A DNA stretch of 56,104 nucleotides from the NCBI GenBank assembly GCA_017510425.1, contig JAFWNJ010000008.1, positions 1-56,104 on the forward strand, written 5' to 3'. This document shows, piece after piece, positions 19,888 through 53,817 of this stretch. This DNA is from Candidatus Saccharimonadota bacterium. GTDB lineage: Bacteria > Patescibacteriota > Saccharimonadia > Saccharimonadales > Saccharimonadaceae. Position 1 is the stretch's first letter. Each line of letters starts with the position of its first letter. The notes below the pieces were generated by a model. It saw only the letters and a list, made by a program, of their open reading frames with translations. It was not told the origin of the DNA and ran no database searches. The translations under genes and the position numbers were made by a program.

Positions 19888-21153
19888 TTACTTTTTCCTT
19901 AAAATTAATATATCTCTCGCGACAACCTGACCATCTCGATGATAAAGAAGCCCCTCTCGCGTTTTACTATCAACATTATACCCCAGTTTATCTATTTCGT
20001 CAAGAATCCCCAGCCTCTCGTAGTTACCGTCCTCGCGTAACCACGCCGGCACCGCAATTACCACCGGAGTATTAACCTTAATCTGACCAGCCAAGTTTTC
20101 CAAAAATCCAACAATAGTCGCCCTACACTCCTGTTTTTGTTCCTTTAGTTCTATATCTGTCGGTATTCTTGAAAAAGGCTTTCCGAGATATCCCTCACAA
20201 GCCACTGCATCGATAGGCTGATTCCAGTGAAAAGAAGTCGCATCGCCCTGGCTGATTTCAAATACTTCCTTCTCGGGCACAGGGTCGCTCGCGCCCGTCG
20301 TTACGGGGCTCGCGCCCTTTCTGTCTCGGTCGTAACCTCCGACAGATCCCTCTAAGAAAGTATTTGAAATCAACCGTCGTACGTATTTTTCACTAAACCA
20401 AACGAGGTTTGTTTCGCTGTATTCAATCATCCTATCGCTGATATCGGTGCCGTAAGCACGATATCCCATCAAAATAGCCTCTTGCAAGACTACGCCAGTG
20501 CCGCAAAACGGATCTAATATCATCGAACCAGGCTCAAGTGTCCCACATAGATTAATTAGAATTTGGGCAAGTTTCGGTGGCAACATTCCCACCCTAGCAT
20601 CGCGCGCCGGCCTTGCCTGATCGCGTTTCGCGTACGCATCAATATCTTGCACCCCAATCACCCTATACCACTCGTCATCAACTTTAATAAACTCTACTTT
20701 ACGCTCATTTTTACCACTAAGACCATTATGTAATGATGTCGCCGTGGAAAGTACCGCATCTTTATTCTCCACTACTCGCACTGATCTACCATGTCGCACC
20801 AGAATCTTCTTCAGCTTCAATGCTTCTTGCTGTGCGCTTTTTCGCGATGCCTGCCTAGAATAATCCGACACTCCAATCGTAATCTTCCCCTCCGACAACC
20901 TCTGAAGGTATTCAAGGGGCTTTTGCTCTAACTCAATCGCCAATTTGAGCACTCCACCAAGACGATTTACATCGACGGGTGACACCACTTGGGGGTCCCC
21001 CATTGAGCTTGACGAAAATGGGGGAAAAGTGGTGGCAGGACCCGTCGAGAATAAAGCTAAATTAGTGTCAATTCGGCGAACGTCAAGAAAAAGTGAGTCA
21101 AGTTCCGCTATTGATATTTCCGGCTGCCTACCTAGAATCGCTAAATATTTCAC
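19888..21153 (-). CDS. Trm11-like THUMP/methyltransferase interrupted by two palindromic inserts
   Basis: 421 residues. The C-terminal half is a Rossmann methyltransferase with the SAM motif ILDPFCGTGVVLQEAI (about residues 215-230), the GTDIS acidic loop, and CEGYLGKPFSRIP in the place of the NPPY catalytic motif, as in Trm11-type tRNA guanine-N2 methyltransferases. The N-terminal half has a THUMP-like region with VNRLGGVLKLAIELE. Two stretches look foreign: about residues 36-61 (insert of repeat family A, nt 20972-21048) and about residues 261-300 (family B, nt 20253-20372). Both keep the frame and lie at domain-surface positions. The ATG overlaps the tyrS stop by four bases. A DNA methylase is the alternative call. 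Confidence 0.75.
   Translation of the reverse strand: MKYLAILGRQPEISIAELDSLFLDVRRIDTNLALFSTGPATTFPPFSSSSMGDPQVVSPVDVNRLGGVLKLAIELEQKPLEYLQRLSEGKITIGVSDYSRQASRKSAQQEALKLKKILVRHGRSVRVVENKDAVLSTATSLHNGLSGKNERKVEFIKVDDEWYRVIGVQDIDAYAKRDQARPARDARVGMLPPKLAQILINLCGTLEPGSMILDPFCGTGVVLQEAILMGYRAYGTDISDRMIEYSETNLVWFSEKYVRRLISNTFLEGSVGGYDRDRKGASPVTTGASDPVPEKEVFEISQGDATSFHWNQPIDAVACEGYLGKPFSRIPTDIELKEQKQECRATIVGFLENLAGQIKVNTPVVIAVPAWLREDGNYERLGILDEIDKLGYNVDSKTREGLLYHRDGQVVARDILILRKK
20253..20372 (-). repeat. Family B palindromic element, copy 1 (inside Trm11-like gene)
   Basis: The outer arms TGATTTCAAATACTT (20253-20267) and its exact complement (20358-20372) enclose a GC-rich core. The core shares two long exact blocks with copy 2: 25 nt (20288-20312) and 17 nt (20325-20341), inverted relative to copy 2. 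Inner pairings include GTTACG/CGTAAC, GGGC-GCGA-GCCC and TCTGTC/GACAGA. The element is translated in frame. Confidence 0.85.
20972..21048 (+). repeat. Family A structured repeat, copy 1 (inside Trm11-like gene)
   Basis: Three nested stems: TCGACGGGT/ACCCGTCGA (outer), ACCACTT/AAGTGGT (middle, 20984-20990 with 21027-21033) and CCCCCATT/AATGGGGG (20997-21004 with 21017-21024). The constant internal loops GAC, GGGGGT and GGCAGG match copies 2 and 3. It is read in frame on the minus strand as part of the methyltransferase gene. Confidence 0.88.
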
Positions 21154-22562
21154 TTCACCACCAAGAATTTATTCTTACCCTTTTTCACCATCGCCGTCTG
21201 ATTCACGGTTATGTCTTCTTTCACTTTCTCACCGTTTACCGTAATTGCGCCCTGCAAGATAAACTCTCGCGCTTTCTTCTTAGATTCCGCAAACCCATTC
21301 TTAACTAAAATATCCGCAAGCTGCTTCCCCCTCTTCTCCACAGGCAGGTATTTTGCAAATTCAAGTAGCTCATCTTCACTGAATTCCGCAAAATTCGTCT
21401 CTCGGTTAAATAACACCGTGGTCAGATTCTCAATCGCATCGGCCGCATTCTTACCATGCACCACTTCCGTAGCTCCTCGCGCCAAAGCTTTCTGCGCAAT
21501 TCTCTCCTCCGGATGCTCACGGTGTTTCGTTAAGATTTCTTCAATTTGCTCCTTCTCAAGTAGCGTATAAATCTTTATTAAGTATTCCACTGCTTCATCC
21601 GGTTGGTTCAGCCAGAATTGATAAAAGTCAAAAATCGACGTATAGTTCCCACCACCATTGTCAGACGATGCGAGCCAAATAGCATTACCTTCCGATTTGC
21701 CAAACTTCCTCCCCGTTACCGGATCAATCACAAGCGGTGTCGACCAAACATCAGCCTCACCACCCTCTATCCTCTTAATCAAATGGATTCCGCTCGTACA
21801 GTTACCATATTGATCCGCTCCACAAAGCTGCAAATCTACACCATATTCTCTATATAAATGCAAGAAATCGTAGCCCTGAATCAAAGTATAGGAGAATTCA
21901 GCATACGATATCCCCGAGCCACCTTCACCAATCCGGTTCTGCACAAATTGCCGATCGAGTAGCTGGGTCATCGAGAACGCCTTCCCGACCTCGCGCAGGA
22001 AATCAAGATACTTCATATCCTTGAACCAATCATAGTTATCAACCATAGTCACGTCGAGGTGATTAGGTAATGCTACTTCGAGATCGTCCGCGACAACGGG
22101 AGCGGTATGAGCGCCGGAGCCCCGTAACAGACCGTCGGAGGAGTCGAGAGAATGAGCAACTTGTTGCTCATTCTGAGACGACGACTGACGGACGACTTCA
22201 GTCGACGGGCGCGCAGGCGCGAGTCGAGAAGTAGTATTACTAATCACTTCCTCAACCTGCTTTTTGATACATTGTTTATTATGCTCGACTTCTTCAAGCG
22301 GCTTCAAATCGCGTTCTCCATTATCCTTCGGATCACCAATCTGACCAGTCGCCCCACCTACTAGTAGGTATGGCTGATAACCATGCCTTACAAAACATGC
22401 ACACATCATTAGTGCCGCCAAATTTCCAATCGTCAACGAATCTGCTGACGGATCAGCGCCCCAGTAAAATTTTTTATTTTTACGATTATCCAAATCCATT
22501 GGATTGCTAATCGTCGTCTCGGCCGAAAAGCCGCGATAAATCAATTCTTCAGATAGTTTCAT
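21150..22562 (-). CDS. tyrS: Tyrosyl-tRNA synthetase with in-frame palindromic insert
   Basis: 470 residues; bacterial TyrRS is usually about 400-420. Class I landmarks are KFYWGADPSADSLTIGNLAALMM (HIGH-like region), VGGATGQIGDPKDNGERD, NYDWFKDMKYLDFLREVGKAFSMTQLL, YTLIQGYDFLHLYREYGVDLQLCGADQYGN and GRKFGKSEGNAIWL (KMSKS-like KFGKS), plus a C-terminal S4-type domain (FAESKKKAREFILQGAITVNGEKV). The extra length is a low-complexity stretch of about 58 residues (about 107-165) before VTMVDNYDWF, encoded by a GC-rich palindrome at 22059-22247. Its position just ahead of the conserved NYDW motif suggests a surface loop. TATAAT lies seven bases before the ATG (leaderless), and a Trm11-like gene overlaps the stop codon. 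Confidence 0.92.
   Translation of the reverse strand: MKLSEELIYRGFSAETTISNPMDLDNRKNKKFYWGADPSADSLTIGNLAALMMCACFVRHGYQPYLLVGGATGQIGDPKDNGERDLKPLEEVEHNKQCIKKQVEEVISNTTSRLAPARPSTEVVRQSSSQNEQQVAHSLDSSDGLLRGSGAHTAPVVADDLEVALPNHLDVTMVDNYDWFKDMKYLDFLREVGKAFSMTQLLDRQFVQNRIGEGGSGISYAEFSYTLIQGYDFLHLYREYGVDLQLCGADQYGNCTSGIHLIKRIEGGEADVWSTPLVIDPVTGRKFGKSEGNAIWLASSDNGGGNYTSIFDFYQFWLNQPDEAVEYLIKIYTLLEKEQIEEILTKHREHPEERIAQKALARGATEVVHGKNAADAIENLTTVLFNRETNFAEFSEDELLEFAKYLPVEKRGKQLADILVKNGFAESKKKAREFILQGAITVNGEKVKEDITVNQTAMVKKGKNKFLVVK
22059..22247. repeat. Divergent family B palindromic element (inside tyrS)
   Basis: The outer arms (22059-22081 and 22224-22247) pair over about 20 positions with one bulge and a wobble. 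Inside are a perfect 11-bp hairpin AGAATGAGCAA/TTGCTCATTCT, CGACTGA/TCAGTCG, and short blocks shared with copies 1 and 2 (GAGCCCCGTAAC, GACGGGCGCG). The insert encodes about 58 residues in frame with tyrS. Its relation to copies 1 and 2 is weaker than theirs to each other. Confidence 0.7.
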
Positions 22563-31171: not shown

Positions 31172-31297
31172 AGCTAACAACCTGCATAGTGTTTGTGGGG
31201 CGCTCCGGAGGTTACGACCGAGGTGGCGAGGGGTCCGAGCCCCGTAACGACGGGCGCGAGGAACCCCGTCCCCAGAAACACTATCAGGTTGTTAGCT
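31172..31297 (+). repeat. Family B palindromic element, copy 2 (clpC-clpP junction)
   Basis: A 22-bp outer stem with a single bulged base (C31185) is formed by AGCTAACAACCTG (31172-31184) with 31285-31297 and ATAGTGTTT (31186-31194) with 31276-31284. The core contains the two blocks shared with copy 1: 17 nt at 31206-31222 and 25 nt at 31236-31260. The right arm includes the last codons and the TGA of clpC. It may also act as a terminator or processing site between clpC and clpP. Confidence 0.88.
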
Positions 31298-36683: not shown

Positions 36684-36749
36684 TTGCAATTAATCGAATT
36701 TATAATCTGTAATTTGGCAAAATATGGCATTCTGACTTGGCAATTCCAT

Positions 36750-36829
36750 GGGCGGGTGACGGACCTGGAGGGGGTCCCCCACGGAGCCTTTGCGACGTGG
36801 GGGAGGAGAAGGTCCGGCAGGACCCGCCC
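36750..36829 (+). repeat. Family A structured repeat, copy 2 (upstream of galU)
   Basis: The stems are GGGCGGGT/ACCCGCCC, GGACCT/AGGTCC (36761-36766 with 36810-36815) and CCCCCACG/CGTGGGGG (36776-36783 with 36796-36803). The constant parts GAC, GGAGGGGGT, AGGAGA and GGCAGG are shared with copy 3. A small palindrome, TGGGTCCACCCA, follows at about 36855-36866. The element lies between the ligase gene and the galU promoter. Confidence 0.88.
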
Positions 36830-36883
36830 AGAGAGCGGGTCCATCCAGAAAGCATGGGTCCACCCATAGCACAAAATCTATGC

Positions 36884-49326: not shown

Positions 49327-51786
49327 CTAAGTGTTTTTCACCGCATCCACCACCGCTGCCCGATTCTCTTTAATCAGATTCAATCTGGAGCGTATTTCAT
49401 TTTCGCCAATCTCTATCGCCCGCTTAAGTGCTAGGTCTTCTCGCATTGGCCCGAAGAATTCTACGAACTTTTTCAGCTCCTCCTCAGTTTTTGCTAGTCT
49501 AGCAATATATGTCGGATAGTCACTTAAAGTCTTGTCACCACCAGTTTTTTTCACAGAATCCCAATTGTGAGTCAACCAATCAAAAGCTCGCATTCGACAC
49601 TTCGGATTCCTATATAGATATATAAACAGCAATATTTGATCTTGCGATTTCACAACATTAAGATTTCCCAGTAAGGCCAGTAGCTTCCCGGCCTTTTTTT
49701 CGTCCTTCGTAAGACACGCTGCAGCTAAATAATCAAATTTCACATCCGGATCTGCTACCTTCTGATACTTCTCCAAAAAATCATCAATTACTTCTGGTTC
49801 CAAATAAGCTTTCGCGCTCAAGATATCGCTACGAATTTCCTTGTCCATCTTGTTGTAATCCGAATTATACATCTCGACTAACTTACAAAACCGCTCCTCG
49901 TCCTCCGCAAAATAATCTAGCCCTAAGAGATTCGCTCTCAGCCTAATCATATCCTCATCGTCACCATCTCTCGTCACAAGCCCAATCTCATCCAGTTTCT
50001 CATCAATCAAATTTAGCACTAGTCTCTTCAACAATTTTTCCTCATCCGAATCATCCTCGAAATACACCTTTAGGTTACCAATCAAAGTCACCACTTTGTT
50101 CCACACCGCAGGCTCCGACTCATGCTGGAATTGCATCACGAGCGGCACTATAGAAGCCGCACTTTGAAGTCCCGACCTTGTAATTAAATCCCGGTCAATC
50201 ATAAGCCTCAGTTTTTCTTCCAACCCTAGTTCACCAAAATCACGTAATCTCGCTTCAAATTCCACATCAGACAGATTCAAAATATAATGTCCACTCATAT
50301 CTTCCGTAATCTCCGGCAAAGGCCAATCCGAATCAGTCATCAATCCATCCAGTAAAAACCTCTTCTGGCCAAACTTAGCAAAATCATCACCCAGGTTCGT
50401 AATCACCGGATACCCAGGTTTATCAATAAATGCATGCATTAATTCGCCAGGCTCAAACTCCGCATAAGGCTTCAAGCACTCCCACAAATCGTTCCCCACC
50501 GTATTCCGATATTTATATTTATCAAAATAATCGACCAAGCCCTTACAGAAATTGTCCCACCCCATCAAACGAATTAGCATGAGCATCAACCTCGCACCTT
50601 TAGCATACACTATCGCCGAGTCGAACAACGTCGCAATCTCCGCCGGATCGTTCACGTCCTGATGCACCGACTGCACTCCACTATAGGCATCCCGCATTAA
50701 CGCCGCATAGGCATCGCCCGTAAAAAACGCCTCGAATATCTTATATTCTGGATGAATCGCATCCACCGCATAATACTCCATTACAGTTGCGAATGATTCA
50801 TTCAACCATAAATCATCCCACCATTCCATCGTCACGAGATCACCAAACCATTGATGAGATAATTCATGCGCCACAGTCAAAGCCACATCCTTTTTCGCAC
50901 CTAGCGTCGCATCTTTTGTAATAAGTAACATCGATTCGCGATAAGTCACCAGCCCCCAGTTCTCCATCGCTCCCGCTTCAAAATCTGGCAATGCTACTTG
51001 ATCAAGTTTCTTCAAAGGATATGGTTCGCCGAAATTATCATCGTAGAACTCTAGCGACCTTGCGGCAATCTCGTTCGCAAAATCCACCGAATCCACATCA
51101 TGAGCAAGCGAACAATAGGTTGTAATTTCCACCCCATGCCCATTCGTCACCGTCTTACTGTGGAAACGTCCAATCACCCATGCCAATAGGTACGTCGACA
51201 TCCTCGGTGTTGGCTCGAAATGATACTCTATAAATCTACTTGCAGACTTCTTACCGTTATCATCATAAAATATATTATATTTACCGTCCGGTACTTTATA
51301 GTATTTCTTAGTCTCTGCCACCGGCATATTCGAAATCACGATTTCGTCCTCGGATTCCGGCACTGTCAGAGTTAAATCAAACACCGCCTTCGCCCCTGGC
51401 TCGTCAATACACGGAAAGGCCTCCCTCGCATAATGACTCTCAAATTGTGTCGCTACGATTATTTCAGTCTTACCCTCATATTCATAGGTAGATAAATACG
51501 CCCCCTCCATATTCTCATTCAAAGTTCCATCATAAGTTATCAGGATTTCAGCCTTGCCTAGTTTAACTTTCGAAATTTCCAAAATCTCCCCGTCCGCCTT
51601 AAACTTCACGTTTTCACCATTTACTATCACCTGATTAATCTTCAGCCCCACTGCATGAAATTTCACCGTCTCTCTTAACACCTCACCCAGGACCACCACC
51701 ACTCCGCCAATCTTTTTATCAATTTTATTAATGCCAATGTTTAAAAAGTATTTTTCCGGTACAAAGTATTGAATCAATCTCTCCAT
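49327..51786 (-). CDS. pepN: M1-family aminopeptidase
   Basis: 819 residues. Zinc metalloprotease that removes N-terminal residues. Landmarks are the substrate-binding GAMENWGLVTYRE, the zinc site VAHELSHQWFGDLVTMEWWDDLWLNESFA (HExxH-18-E) and the transition-state Tyr region, followed by a helical C-terminal domain (ERAP1-like). No signal peptide, so cytosolic. It probably breaks down peptides imported from the host. GAAAGGAAA precedes the ATG. Confidence 0.94.
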   Translation of the reverse strand: MERLIQYFVPEKYFLNIGINKIDKKIGGVVVVLGEVLRETVKFHAVGLKINQVIVNGENVKFKADGEILEISKVKLGKAEILITYDGTLNENMEGAYLSTYEYEGKTEIIVATQFESHYAREAFPCIDEPGAKAVFDLTLTVPESEDEIVISNMPVAETKKYYKVPDGKYNIFYDDNGKKSASRFIEYHFEPTPRMSTYLLAWVIGRFHSKTVTNGHGVEITTYCSLAHDVDSVDFANEIAARSLEFYDDNFGEPYPLKKLDQVALPDFEAGAMENWGLVTYRESMLLITKDATLGAKKDVALTVAHELSHQWFGDLVTMEWWDDLWLNESFATVMEYYAVDAIHPEYKIFEAFFTGDAYAALMRDAYSGVQSVHQDVNDPAEIATLFDSAIVYAKGARLMLMLIRLMGWDNFCKGLVDYFDKYKYRNTVGNDLWECLKPYAEFEPGELMHAFIDKPGYPVITNLGDDFAKFGQKRFLLDGLMTDSDWPLPEITEDMSGHYILNLSDVEFEARLRDFGELGLEEKLRLMIDRDLITRSGLQSAASIVPLVMQFQHESEPAVWNKVVTLIGNLKVYFEDDSDEEKLLKRLVLNLIDEKLDEIGLVTRDGDDEDMIRLRANLLGLDYFAEDEERFCKLVEMYNSDYNKMDKEIRSDILSAKAYLEPEVIDDFLEKYQKVADPDVKFDYLAAACLTKDEKKAGKLLALLGNLNVVKSQDQILLFIYLYRNPKCRMRAFDWLTHNWDSVKKTGGDKTLSDYPTYIARLAKTEEELKKFVEFFGPMREDLALKRAIEIGENEIRSRLNLIKENRAAVVDAVKNT

Positions 51787-51808
51787 ATTATTTCCTTTCT
51801 ATTTTACA

Positions 51809-51890
51809 TCGACGAGTGACGGAACTGGAGGGGGTCCCCCAAAATTGTTGCCAATTTTGGGGGAGGAGAAGTTCCGGCAGGACCCGTCGA
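51809..51890 (+). repeat. Family A structured repeat, copy 3 (ftsH-pepN junction)
   Basis: The stems are TCGACGAGT/ACCCGTCGA (one mismatch), GGAACT/AGTTCC (51821-51826 with 51870-51875) and CCCCCAAAATTG/CAATTTTGGGGG (51836-51847 with 51852-51863) around TTGC. The constant loops GAC, GGAGGGGGT, AGGAGA and GGCAGG are the same as copy 2. The flanks ACATCGACG and CGTCGAGAA also match copy 1. Confidence 0.9.
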
Positions 51891-51897
51891 GAAAAAG

Positions 51898-53817
51898 TTA
51901 ATGTAATTTGGCGTTTGTTGGTAATTTTGCCGATTTAAGAATCGGAGCAAGCTCAGCTTCTTCCAAAGTTTCATGCGCAAGCAGTTCCGCGGCAAGCTTA
52001 TCAAGTGTAGTCTTATTAGCTTTTAAGACTTCCTCCGCCCGCTTCGCTGCTTCATCAGATAACTTCTTGATTTCCGCATCGATCAGCTCAGCCGTCTTTT
52101 CCGAATATGGCTTGCCCGTCGTGATAGTATAATAGCCAGTTTCTTCACCTGGGAACACAATGTTTCTTAAACCTACGCCCATACCTTCTTCTATAATCAT
52201 CGACTTCGCCAGTGCTGCTACATTCTTGAGATCCGACGAAGCTCCAGTCGTTACTGCATCAGTACCGAAAACCAGCTTCTCCGCCATTCGGCCACCCATC
52301 GCCCTAGCCAAGACATCCTTTAGCTCATAGATATTCTTATAGTTCCGGTCTTCCGGTGGCAAGAACCAAGTCACTCCACCAGTCTGCCCACGTGGGATAA
52401 TCGTAACCTTGTGTACTGGATCCGAATCAGGCAACACGTGTCCTACAATCGCATGCCCCGCCTCATGATAGGCCGTAATTTTGCGTTCCTTCTCATTCAT
52501 TACCTTGGATTTCCGCTCCGGGCCAATCGCTACCCTTTCAAATGCTTCCGTCACATCATGATTTGAAATAGCCTTATGCCCTTCACGTGCTGCTGTAATC
52601 GCCGCCTCATTCGCAATATTAGCAAGATCCGCGCCAGATGAGCCAGCCGTCTTCTTCGCTAGGGATTCCAGGTCCACATCCGCTTCCACCGGCTTACCTT
52701 TAAAATGCACCTTCAGGATTTCCAATCTATCCTTTCGCTCCGGCAAAGTTACATTAACATGCCGATCGAACCGCCCCGGACGAAGTAGCGCCTTGTCTAG
52801 CATATCCACCCGGTTAGTCGCCGCCATCACTATCACCCCCGAATCATTATCAAACCCATCCATTTCCACTAGGATTTGGTTCAAAGTCTGCTCATCCTCG
52901 CGCCCTGCACCGCCCCGTGCATCACGCTTATGTGCAACTGCATCAATCTCATCAATAAAGATAATCGACGGCGCATTCTTCTTCGCTTTCGAGAACAAAT
53001 CTCGCACTCTCGAAGCACCAACCCCCACAAACATCTCCGCGAATTCCGAACCCGAAATCGAGAAGAATGGCACATTAGCCTCACCCGCCACCGCTCGTGC
53101 CATTAAAGTCTTACCCGTACCCGGATCACCAGCCAGTAGCACCCCGCGCGGAATCTTGGCGCCTAGCTTCTCATACTTCTTCGGACTCTTTAGAAAATCC
53201 ACGATTTCAGTCAAATCTTGCTTCGCCGACTCGTTCCCCGCTACATCCTTAAATGTCACCTTCTTCTTATCTGGACCGTATAGTTTCGCCCTAGATTTAC
53301 CAAAAGCCATCGATTGATTATTCGCCGATGTCGCCTGCTTCATCATCCACGAGAAGAAGACCACTAGCGCCACAATCGGTAGCACCGTCAAAGCTACATC
53401 AAGTACAATACCCCATACATTGTTATCTTCTTTATATTCAATCACGGGATACTTTTCTTCGCACTCTTTCAGCTCTTCGCCCTCTAAGTCCAGGCAGTGA
53501 TTTTTAAGGCCCTGATCATATAAAGTTCCAGAACCATCCTTCCGAGAAACTTCCGTCGGTGTATCCTTACCTTTAAGCGTAATCTCCAAGTTCTGCCCTG
53601 TTACCGTAATCTTTGCAATATCGCCATCCGGGTCATTAGCTCTCCGAATCACATCTGAGATTGGCACTTCTGTCTTTTGCTTATCACCCTGATTCAGCGA
53701 TGATATCAGCAACATGCCAAAACATATCATTATAAATATAAACAACGCGCTTCGAATTGTATTCGATGCATTGTTATTTTTTTGTCCTAAATTCTTATTC
53801 GGTATTTTATCTGCCAC
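51898..53817 (-). CDS. ftsH: ATP-dependent zinc metalloprotease FtsH
   Basis: 639 residues. Two N-terminal membrane helices ([44 protein letters not shown]) flank an extracytoplasmic domain. The AAA+ domain has [18 protein letters not shown] and the second region of homology [20 protein letters not shown]. The zinc protease has [10 protein letters not shown] and the third ligand region. It degrades membrane and regulatory proteins. Start is GTG 53817 after AAGGAG. Confidence 0.97.

Follow-up and report, generated by a model that had tools for sequence, protein, structure and literature searches.

A short palindromic DNA element, probably mobile, in Saccharibacteria and other Patescibacteria

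Rickettsia palindromic elements (RPEs), reportedly described by Ogata et al. in 2000, are the best-known selfish DNA translated inside conserved bacterial proteins; to our knowledge, no enzyme that mobilises them is known and their mode of movement is not established. MITEs such as ERIC, RUP and Correia have terminal repeats that stay constant and produce a direct duplication of the target site, and KOPS- and Chi-type chromosome motifs are short, frequent and constant. In two reviews, RPEs are described as short non-autonomous palindromes of 105–150 bp with 12-bp terminal repeats, dispersed between genes or lying in frame in conserved protein genes (PMC2229807, PMC10969869). The ends of IS200/IS605 elements act as folded single-stranded DNA, show a replication-strand preference and find their sites by short base pairing (PMC6006769).

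Here we analysed three hairpin-forming sites in a window of 56,104 nucleotides (the whole stretch of DNA under study, from a Candidatus Saccharimonadota bacterium). Sequence comparison suggests that they are quite probably copies of one short non-autonomous mobile palindromic DNA element, which would probably insert as a single-stranded DNA hairpin at replication forks. The element is spread across the ultra-small Patescibacteria and appears to be previously undescribed; a literature search, which covered few subscription papers and is weak evidence, gave no description of an element of such kind in Saccharibacteria or other Patescibacteria. By analogy, it probably acts like RPEs, to which it is likened by features and not by sequence: it is a palindromic repeat scattered through the genome, with in-frame copies in conserved protein genes that are unrelated to one another, and each genome can hold several families. 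Unlike RPEs, it occurs in another phylum, is mostly 79–97 nt long and has a variable 5-bp arm joined to GGGT/ACCC, and neither strand polarity nor arms that vary between near-identical copies are among the RPE features given in the accessible parts of PMC2229807 and PMC10969869. It would represent a second, much wider RPE-like system, marked by clear strand polarity and by arms that seem to record each insertion, in which the mechanism would become testable by comparative genomics.

Like ERIC, RUP and Correia (PMC2229807), the element is non-autonomous, forms stable hairpins and is occasionally fused in frame; unlike these MITEs, its outer 5 bp differ by copy and constant terminal inverted repeats were not found, so that by this test it is not a standard MITE. 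The folded single-stranded DNA and replication-strand preference proposed for it recall IS200/IS605 ends (PMC6006769), whereas it has neither a Y1 transposase gene nor left and right ends flanking a cargo gene. A GTTRRRY-type core of integron attC sites was not recognised in the copies read by eye.

Shared fold and variable arms

The three copies, reported in a preliminary description made from the letters alone, are real, all lie on the plus strand and fold alike, with folding z-scores of −5.3, −5.3 and −4.4 for copies 1, 2 and 3 and none of 200 shuffles as good (Table 1). They had been placed at three unrelated places; the sites are indeed three, but they are not equivalent, as copy 1 lies in a reading frame of the opposite strand and copies 2 and 3 are intergenic. 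Copy 2 is flanked by an AMP-binding enzyme gene (end 36683) and a nucleotidyltransferase gene (ATG 36900), and copy 3 by the start of a peptidase M1 gene (49327–51786, minus strand) and the end of an FtsH-like gene (51898–53817, minus strand). Directly 3' of copy 2, positions 36834–36868 read AGCGGGTCCATCCAGAAAGCATGGGTCCACCC, which looks like remnants of more element 3' ends.

Table 1. Positions of the element copies, their outer arms and the host gene of copy 1 in the window
Feature	Position	Strand	Description	Basis
Copy 1	20970–21051	+	Inside and antisense to methyltransferase gene	R1 match, E 2.2e-14
Copy 1, left outer arm	20972–20980	+	TCGAC + GGGT	Sequence, fold
Copy 1, GGCAGG loop and right outer arm	21034–21048	+	ACCC + GTCGA	Sequence, fold
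Copy 2	36747–36833	+	Intergenic	R1 match, E 1.4e-20
Copy 2, left outer arm	36749–36757	+	TGGGC + GGGT	Sequence
Copy 2, GGCAGG loop and right outer arm	36816–36830	+	ACCC + GCCCA	Sequence
Copy 3	51807–51893	+	Intergenic	R1 match, E 5.0e-19
Copy 3, left outer arm	51809–51817	+	TCGAC + GAGT, one mismatch	Sequence, fold
Copy 3, GGCAGG loop and right outer arm	51876–51890	+	ACCC + GTCGA	Sequence
Host gene of copy 1	19888–21153	-	RlmKL/Trm11-like methyltransferase (PF01170)	Translation, Pfam, congener comparison

In the element, the outer stem is followed inwards by the internal loop GAC/GGCAGG, the middle stem P2, a loop rich in G and the inner stem P3; its conserved hairpin runs GGGTGAC, P2, G-rich loop, P3 (which starts CCCCC), P2' and GGCAGGACCC. 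The outer stem comprises GGGT/ACCC plus usually 5 base pairs specific to each copy, and the length overall ranges from about 53 to 110 nt. As claimed, GAC, GGCAGG and GGAGGGGGT, the last in full or shortened, are fixed in the loops and the stems exist in alternative paired versions, changes on both sides occurring in 17 of the 22 pairs across 104 copies, in which the covariation score is 0.552 as against 0.144 for shuffled and at most 0.100 for slid controls. One correction concerns the outer stem of copy 3, in which GAGT stands opposite ACCC with one mismatch.

Outside GGGT/ACCC, arm pairing is high over five positions and then falls to near chance. In 33 copy pairs at different sites with cores at most 2 bases apart, the two copies disagree at 32% of arm positions as against 2% of core positions; of the 26 pairs with differing arms, 21 are such that each copy keeps at least four of its five arm base pairs. 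Since near-identical cores carry different yet paired arms, the outer-stem covariation probably arises with each insertion and not via slow compensatory evolution; the argument from covariation alone to a shape under selection is not supported. The copy L241:3243 has 12-bp arms, the right one of which matches a promoter-like region of the empty homologue, so its left arm resembles the target in inverted form; as a single case, this is suggestive only. Among variant forms, short ones of 53–58 nt (L043, L041, L125 and L128) keep the outer and middle stems and have no inner hairpin, L023 (G000:C12:6991) is a copy nested within another with a third 3' half beyond, and at G000:C15:42200 the 3' half is present twice.

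Occurrence in genomes and inside genes

The 840-kb genome contains the motif GGCAGGACCC 21 times. A covariance-model search for homologues, as proposed in the preliminary description, found many: with a model built from 17 copies, this genome has about 23 copies at E<1e-4, congeneric species have 0 to 14 (zero in many near-complete genomes), and 18 of the 60 genomes searched, this one included, carry the element, at 0–24 copies per genome overall. A second model detected it in 21 of 380 Patescibacteria genomes, representing 18 of 313 genera. An exact core pattern was also run against GTDB, at one genome per species; among the matches listed, the majority are Saccharibacteria from ruminant gut samples, Blackburnbacteria, Levyibacteriota, Gottesmanbacteria, Uhrbacteria and a Parcubacteria bin share the same core, and there are no Rickettsia records. 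Three further core-pattern matches (L215, L218 and L219) fall in Legionellaceae, Actinobacteria and Nitrospirae MAGs, whose contig identity is taken as labelled; L218, with poorly paired stems, is probably a chance match. Rfam 15 gave no match at gathering score and chance-level weak hits when loosened, and the family is as unrecognised as had been stated. Viral spread was set aside, with 0 exact matches in IMG/VR. Patchy occurrence together with near-identical copies at unrelated sites argues for mobility.

Counting as in-gene those copies on both sides of which the reading frame runs for at least 45 codons, 95 of 208 unique copies lie within reading frames, 63 in sense and 32 in antisense orientation. 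The hosts, named from sequence, include IleS, UvrB, ObgE, YchF, PheT, TopA, QueA, TyrS, LepA, PriA, LeuS, AlaS, LigA and FtsI; Pfam confirmed the genes of the window as well as ObgE and YchF. A core length of 1 mod 3 is seen for 64 of the 95 in-gene copies and for 15 of the 47 intergenic copies (p = 3e-4), which fits a model where insertions survive only if they keep the frame. In the window, conceptual translation of the methyltransferase gene turns copy 1 into the in-frame peptide STGPATTFPPFSSSSMGDPQVVSPVD; orthologues in the congeners G006, G016, G025 and G032 are shorter at this site, and in G003 and G018 this region carries separate insertions.

Insert-free homologues are known for TopA, QueA, ObgE, UvrB, IleS and the Trm11-like protein, and an empty-site homologue is available for 66 copies. 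TopA of G029 has VDGVAAAGPAAASSPTVAKAPSGVPQAASPADESD at the position of ANNTNPQA in this genome. Between two conserved motifs, IleS has 29 residues without and 59–65 with the insert; the corresponding lengths are 32 versus 58–62 in QueA and 40 versus 65 in ObgE. Net insert lengths scatter because empty-site homologues are just ~65–82% identical, and in alignments with relatives at this distance no direct target-site duplication was seen. In-gene copies with a 72-nt core have 5-bp arms too, and the frame arithmetic fits no single rule: judged by core length mod 3 and arm length, neither a palindromic-target nor a one-arm-duplication model fits all copies. RNA splicing of in-gene copies is unlikely, as a third of them are antisense to the gene. 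Many Patescibacteria core proteins would hence contain predicted inserts of roughly 20–35 residues derived from mobile DNA, which is relevant to annotation, phylogeny and structure prediction.

UvrB genes of the genus (L271–L300) are hypervariable in length between conserved motifs, with inserts that differ across many species, and this stretch may be a hotspot for in-frame insertions. The TyrS gene of the window (21150–22562) contains a long in-frame insert of low complexity, NTTSRLAPARPSTEVVRQ...HTAPVVADD, in a place where G035 has a copy of the present element and L314 is far shorter.

Strand polarity

Strand composition was measured as GC skew at third codon positions (GC3), with the element itself left out. 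The skew is negative in element orientation, 100 of 112 copies lying on the C-rich strand (p = 2e-18, with copies on the same contig not independent), and direct reading of long contigs agrees. All copies point in the same direction in 23 of 27 multi-copy contigs, where 9.1 are expected by chance. The skew is alike in co-directional and anti-directional genes (−0.294 vs −0.273); element orientation follows strand composition and is independent of genes, the latter as already proposed from the window. The element core is G-rich (skew +0.24), so compositional drift does not explain why it lies on the C-rich strand. This strand-composition bias and the in-frame insertion into housekeeping genes, the two most important facts, are absent from the preliminary description. 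The leading strand is usually G-rich; by this rule, the printed strand would have the sense of the new lagging strand, a sign not independently confirmed because ribosomal operons in the genus split 15 to 14 and are uninformative.

The preliminary description had left the choice between a mobile DNA hairpin and an independent RNA. Dispersed near-identical cores, polarity and in-gene copies support the former. An independent structured RNA, sRNA- or ribozyme-like and present in many copies with stems conserved through RNA folding, would match the strong consensus structure, the fixed internal-loop bases and the paired changes, as well as the 45 G-T versus 22 A-C mismatches on the printed strand. 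We nevertheless regard it as improbable, as orientation tracks strand composition and not transcription, a third of the in-gene copies are antisense, near-identical copies bear different paired arms, most relatives are without the element and there is no Rfam family. Moreover, 2.2% of the stem pairs in the element are G-U, versus 7.4% in 51 tRNAs from the same loci, a threefold rarity that favours DNA over RNA.

Mode of movement and further alternatives

As a mobile DNA hairpin, the element would move as single-stranded DNA folded at replication forks, where a putative recogniser may read GGGTGAC and GGCAGGACCC; insertion would create one arm by copying the target in inverted form, and within genes only frame-keeping insertions would survive. 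Neither a transposase nor an integrase could be linked to the element. Of 36 congeners, a single one, itself free of copies, has the Y1_Tnp domain (PF01797), which was absent from all element-bearing congeners searched; the control genomes gave a positive signal. RVT_1 was found in 24 of the 36 and was absent from the copy-bearing G003, G004, G018, G026, G029 and G033, so that the presence of a reverse transcriptase does not track the element, and it was rejected as mobiliser. Between close copies, no recognisable transposase or other candidate gene was found, with short ORF starts judged by eye.

It is conceivable, though we consider it unlikely, that several palindromic DNA families spread without a dedicated transposase, via one-end hairpin joining and fold-back copying of the target. 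One end of a single-stranded hairpin would be joined to a strand at the replication fork and the opposite end would prime fold-back copying, leaving an outer arm that is an inverted copy of the target; if true, this would be a mode of transposition that gives inverted, not direct, target duplications.

Mobilisation as a REP-type element by a Y1 transposase (TnpA-REP/RAYT) that was lost or escaped the search is very improbable. IS200/IS605 and REP/REPIN systems are indeed known for small multi-copy DNA hairpins, a replication-strand link and, occasionally, insertion in frame (PMC6006769), but here the only congener positive for PF01797 has no copies, the structure is larger, with three stems, and about half of the copies lie in genes. 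Nor was the 5' foot tetranucleotide of REPs (GTAG, GTGG or CGTC) found in the 5' base composition of 208 copies or in the flanks read, the usual foot being CA(T) followed by the variable arm; by both the transposase and the foot-motif test, the element is not a REP system.

There is little to recommend a cis-acting RNA of neighbouring genes, i.e. a terminator, attenuator or mRNA stabiliser: copies 2 and 3 of the window are intergenic and such strong hairpins can alter transcription or mRNA decay, but the genes next to copies are unrelated, about half of the copies lie within genes in either orientation, and gene orientation does not predict that of the element. Secondary cis effects of single copies are possible. 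Least probable of all is a polar chromosome motif for replication, segregation or recombination, KOPS- or Chi-like, which would account for the strong polarity relative to GC3 skew but sits badly with just 0–24 copies per genome, absence from many equally complete congeners, nested and truncated copies, and arms that vary between near-identical copies.

The methyltransferase gene that hosts copy 1 also contains, at 20254–20371 on the minus strand, a repeat of a second in-frame palindromic family, with the core GGGCGCGAGCCCCGTAACGACGGGCGCGAG, the peptide GASPVTTGASDP and 18-bp inverted arms (GATTTCAAATACTTTCTT / AAGGAAGTATTTGAAATC) on either side; the arms of other copies of this family differ. 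In comparison with orthologues without the repeat (e.g., L302), its right arm aligns to old gene sequence, so that the left arm seems to have been copied from it in inverted form. A further match to the second-family core, CCCCGTAACGACGGG, lies at 31240–31254 on the plus strand.
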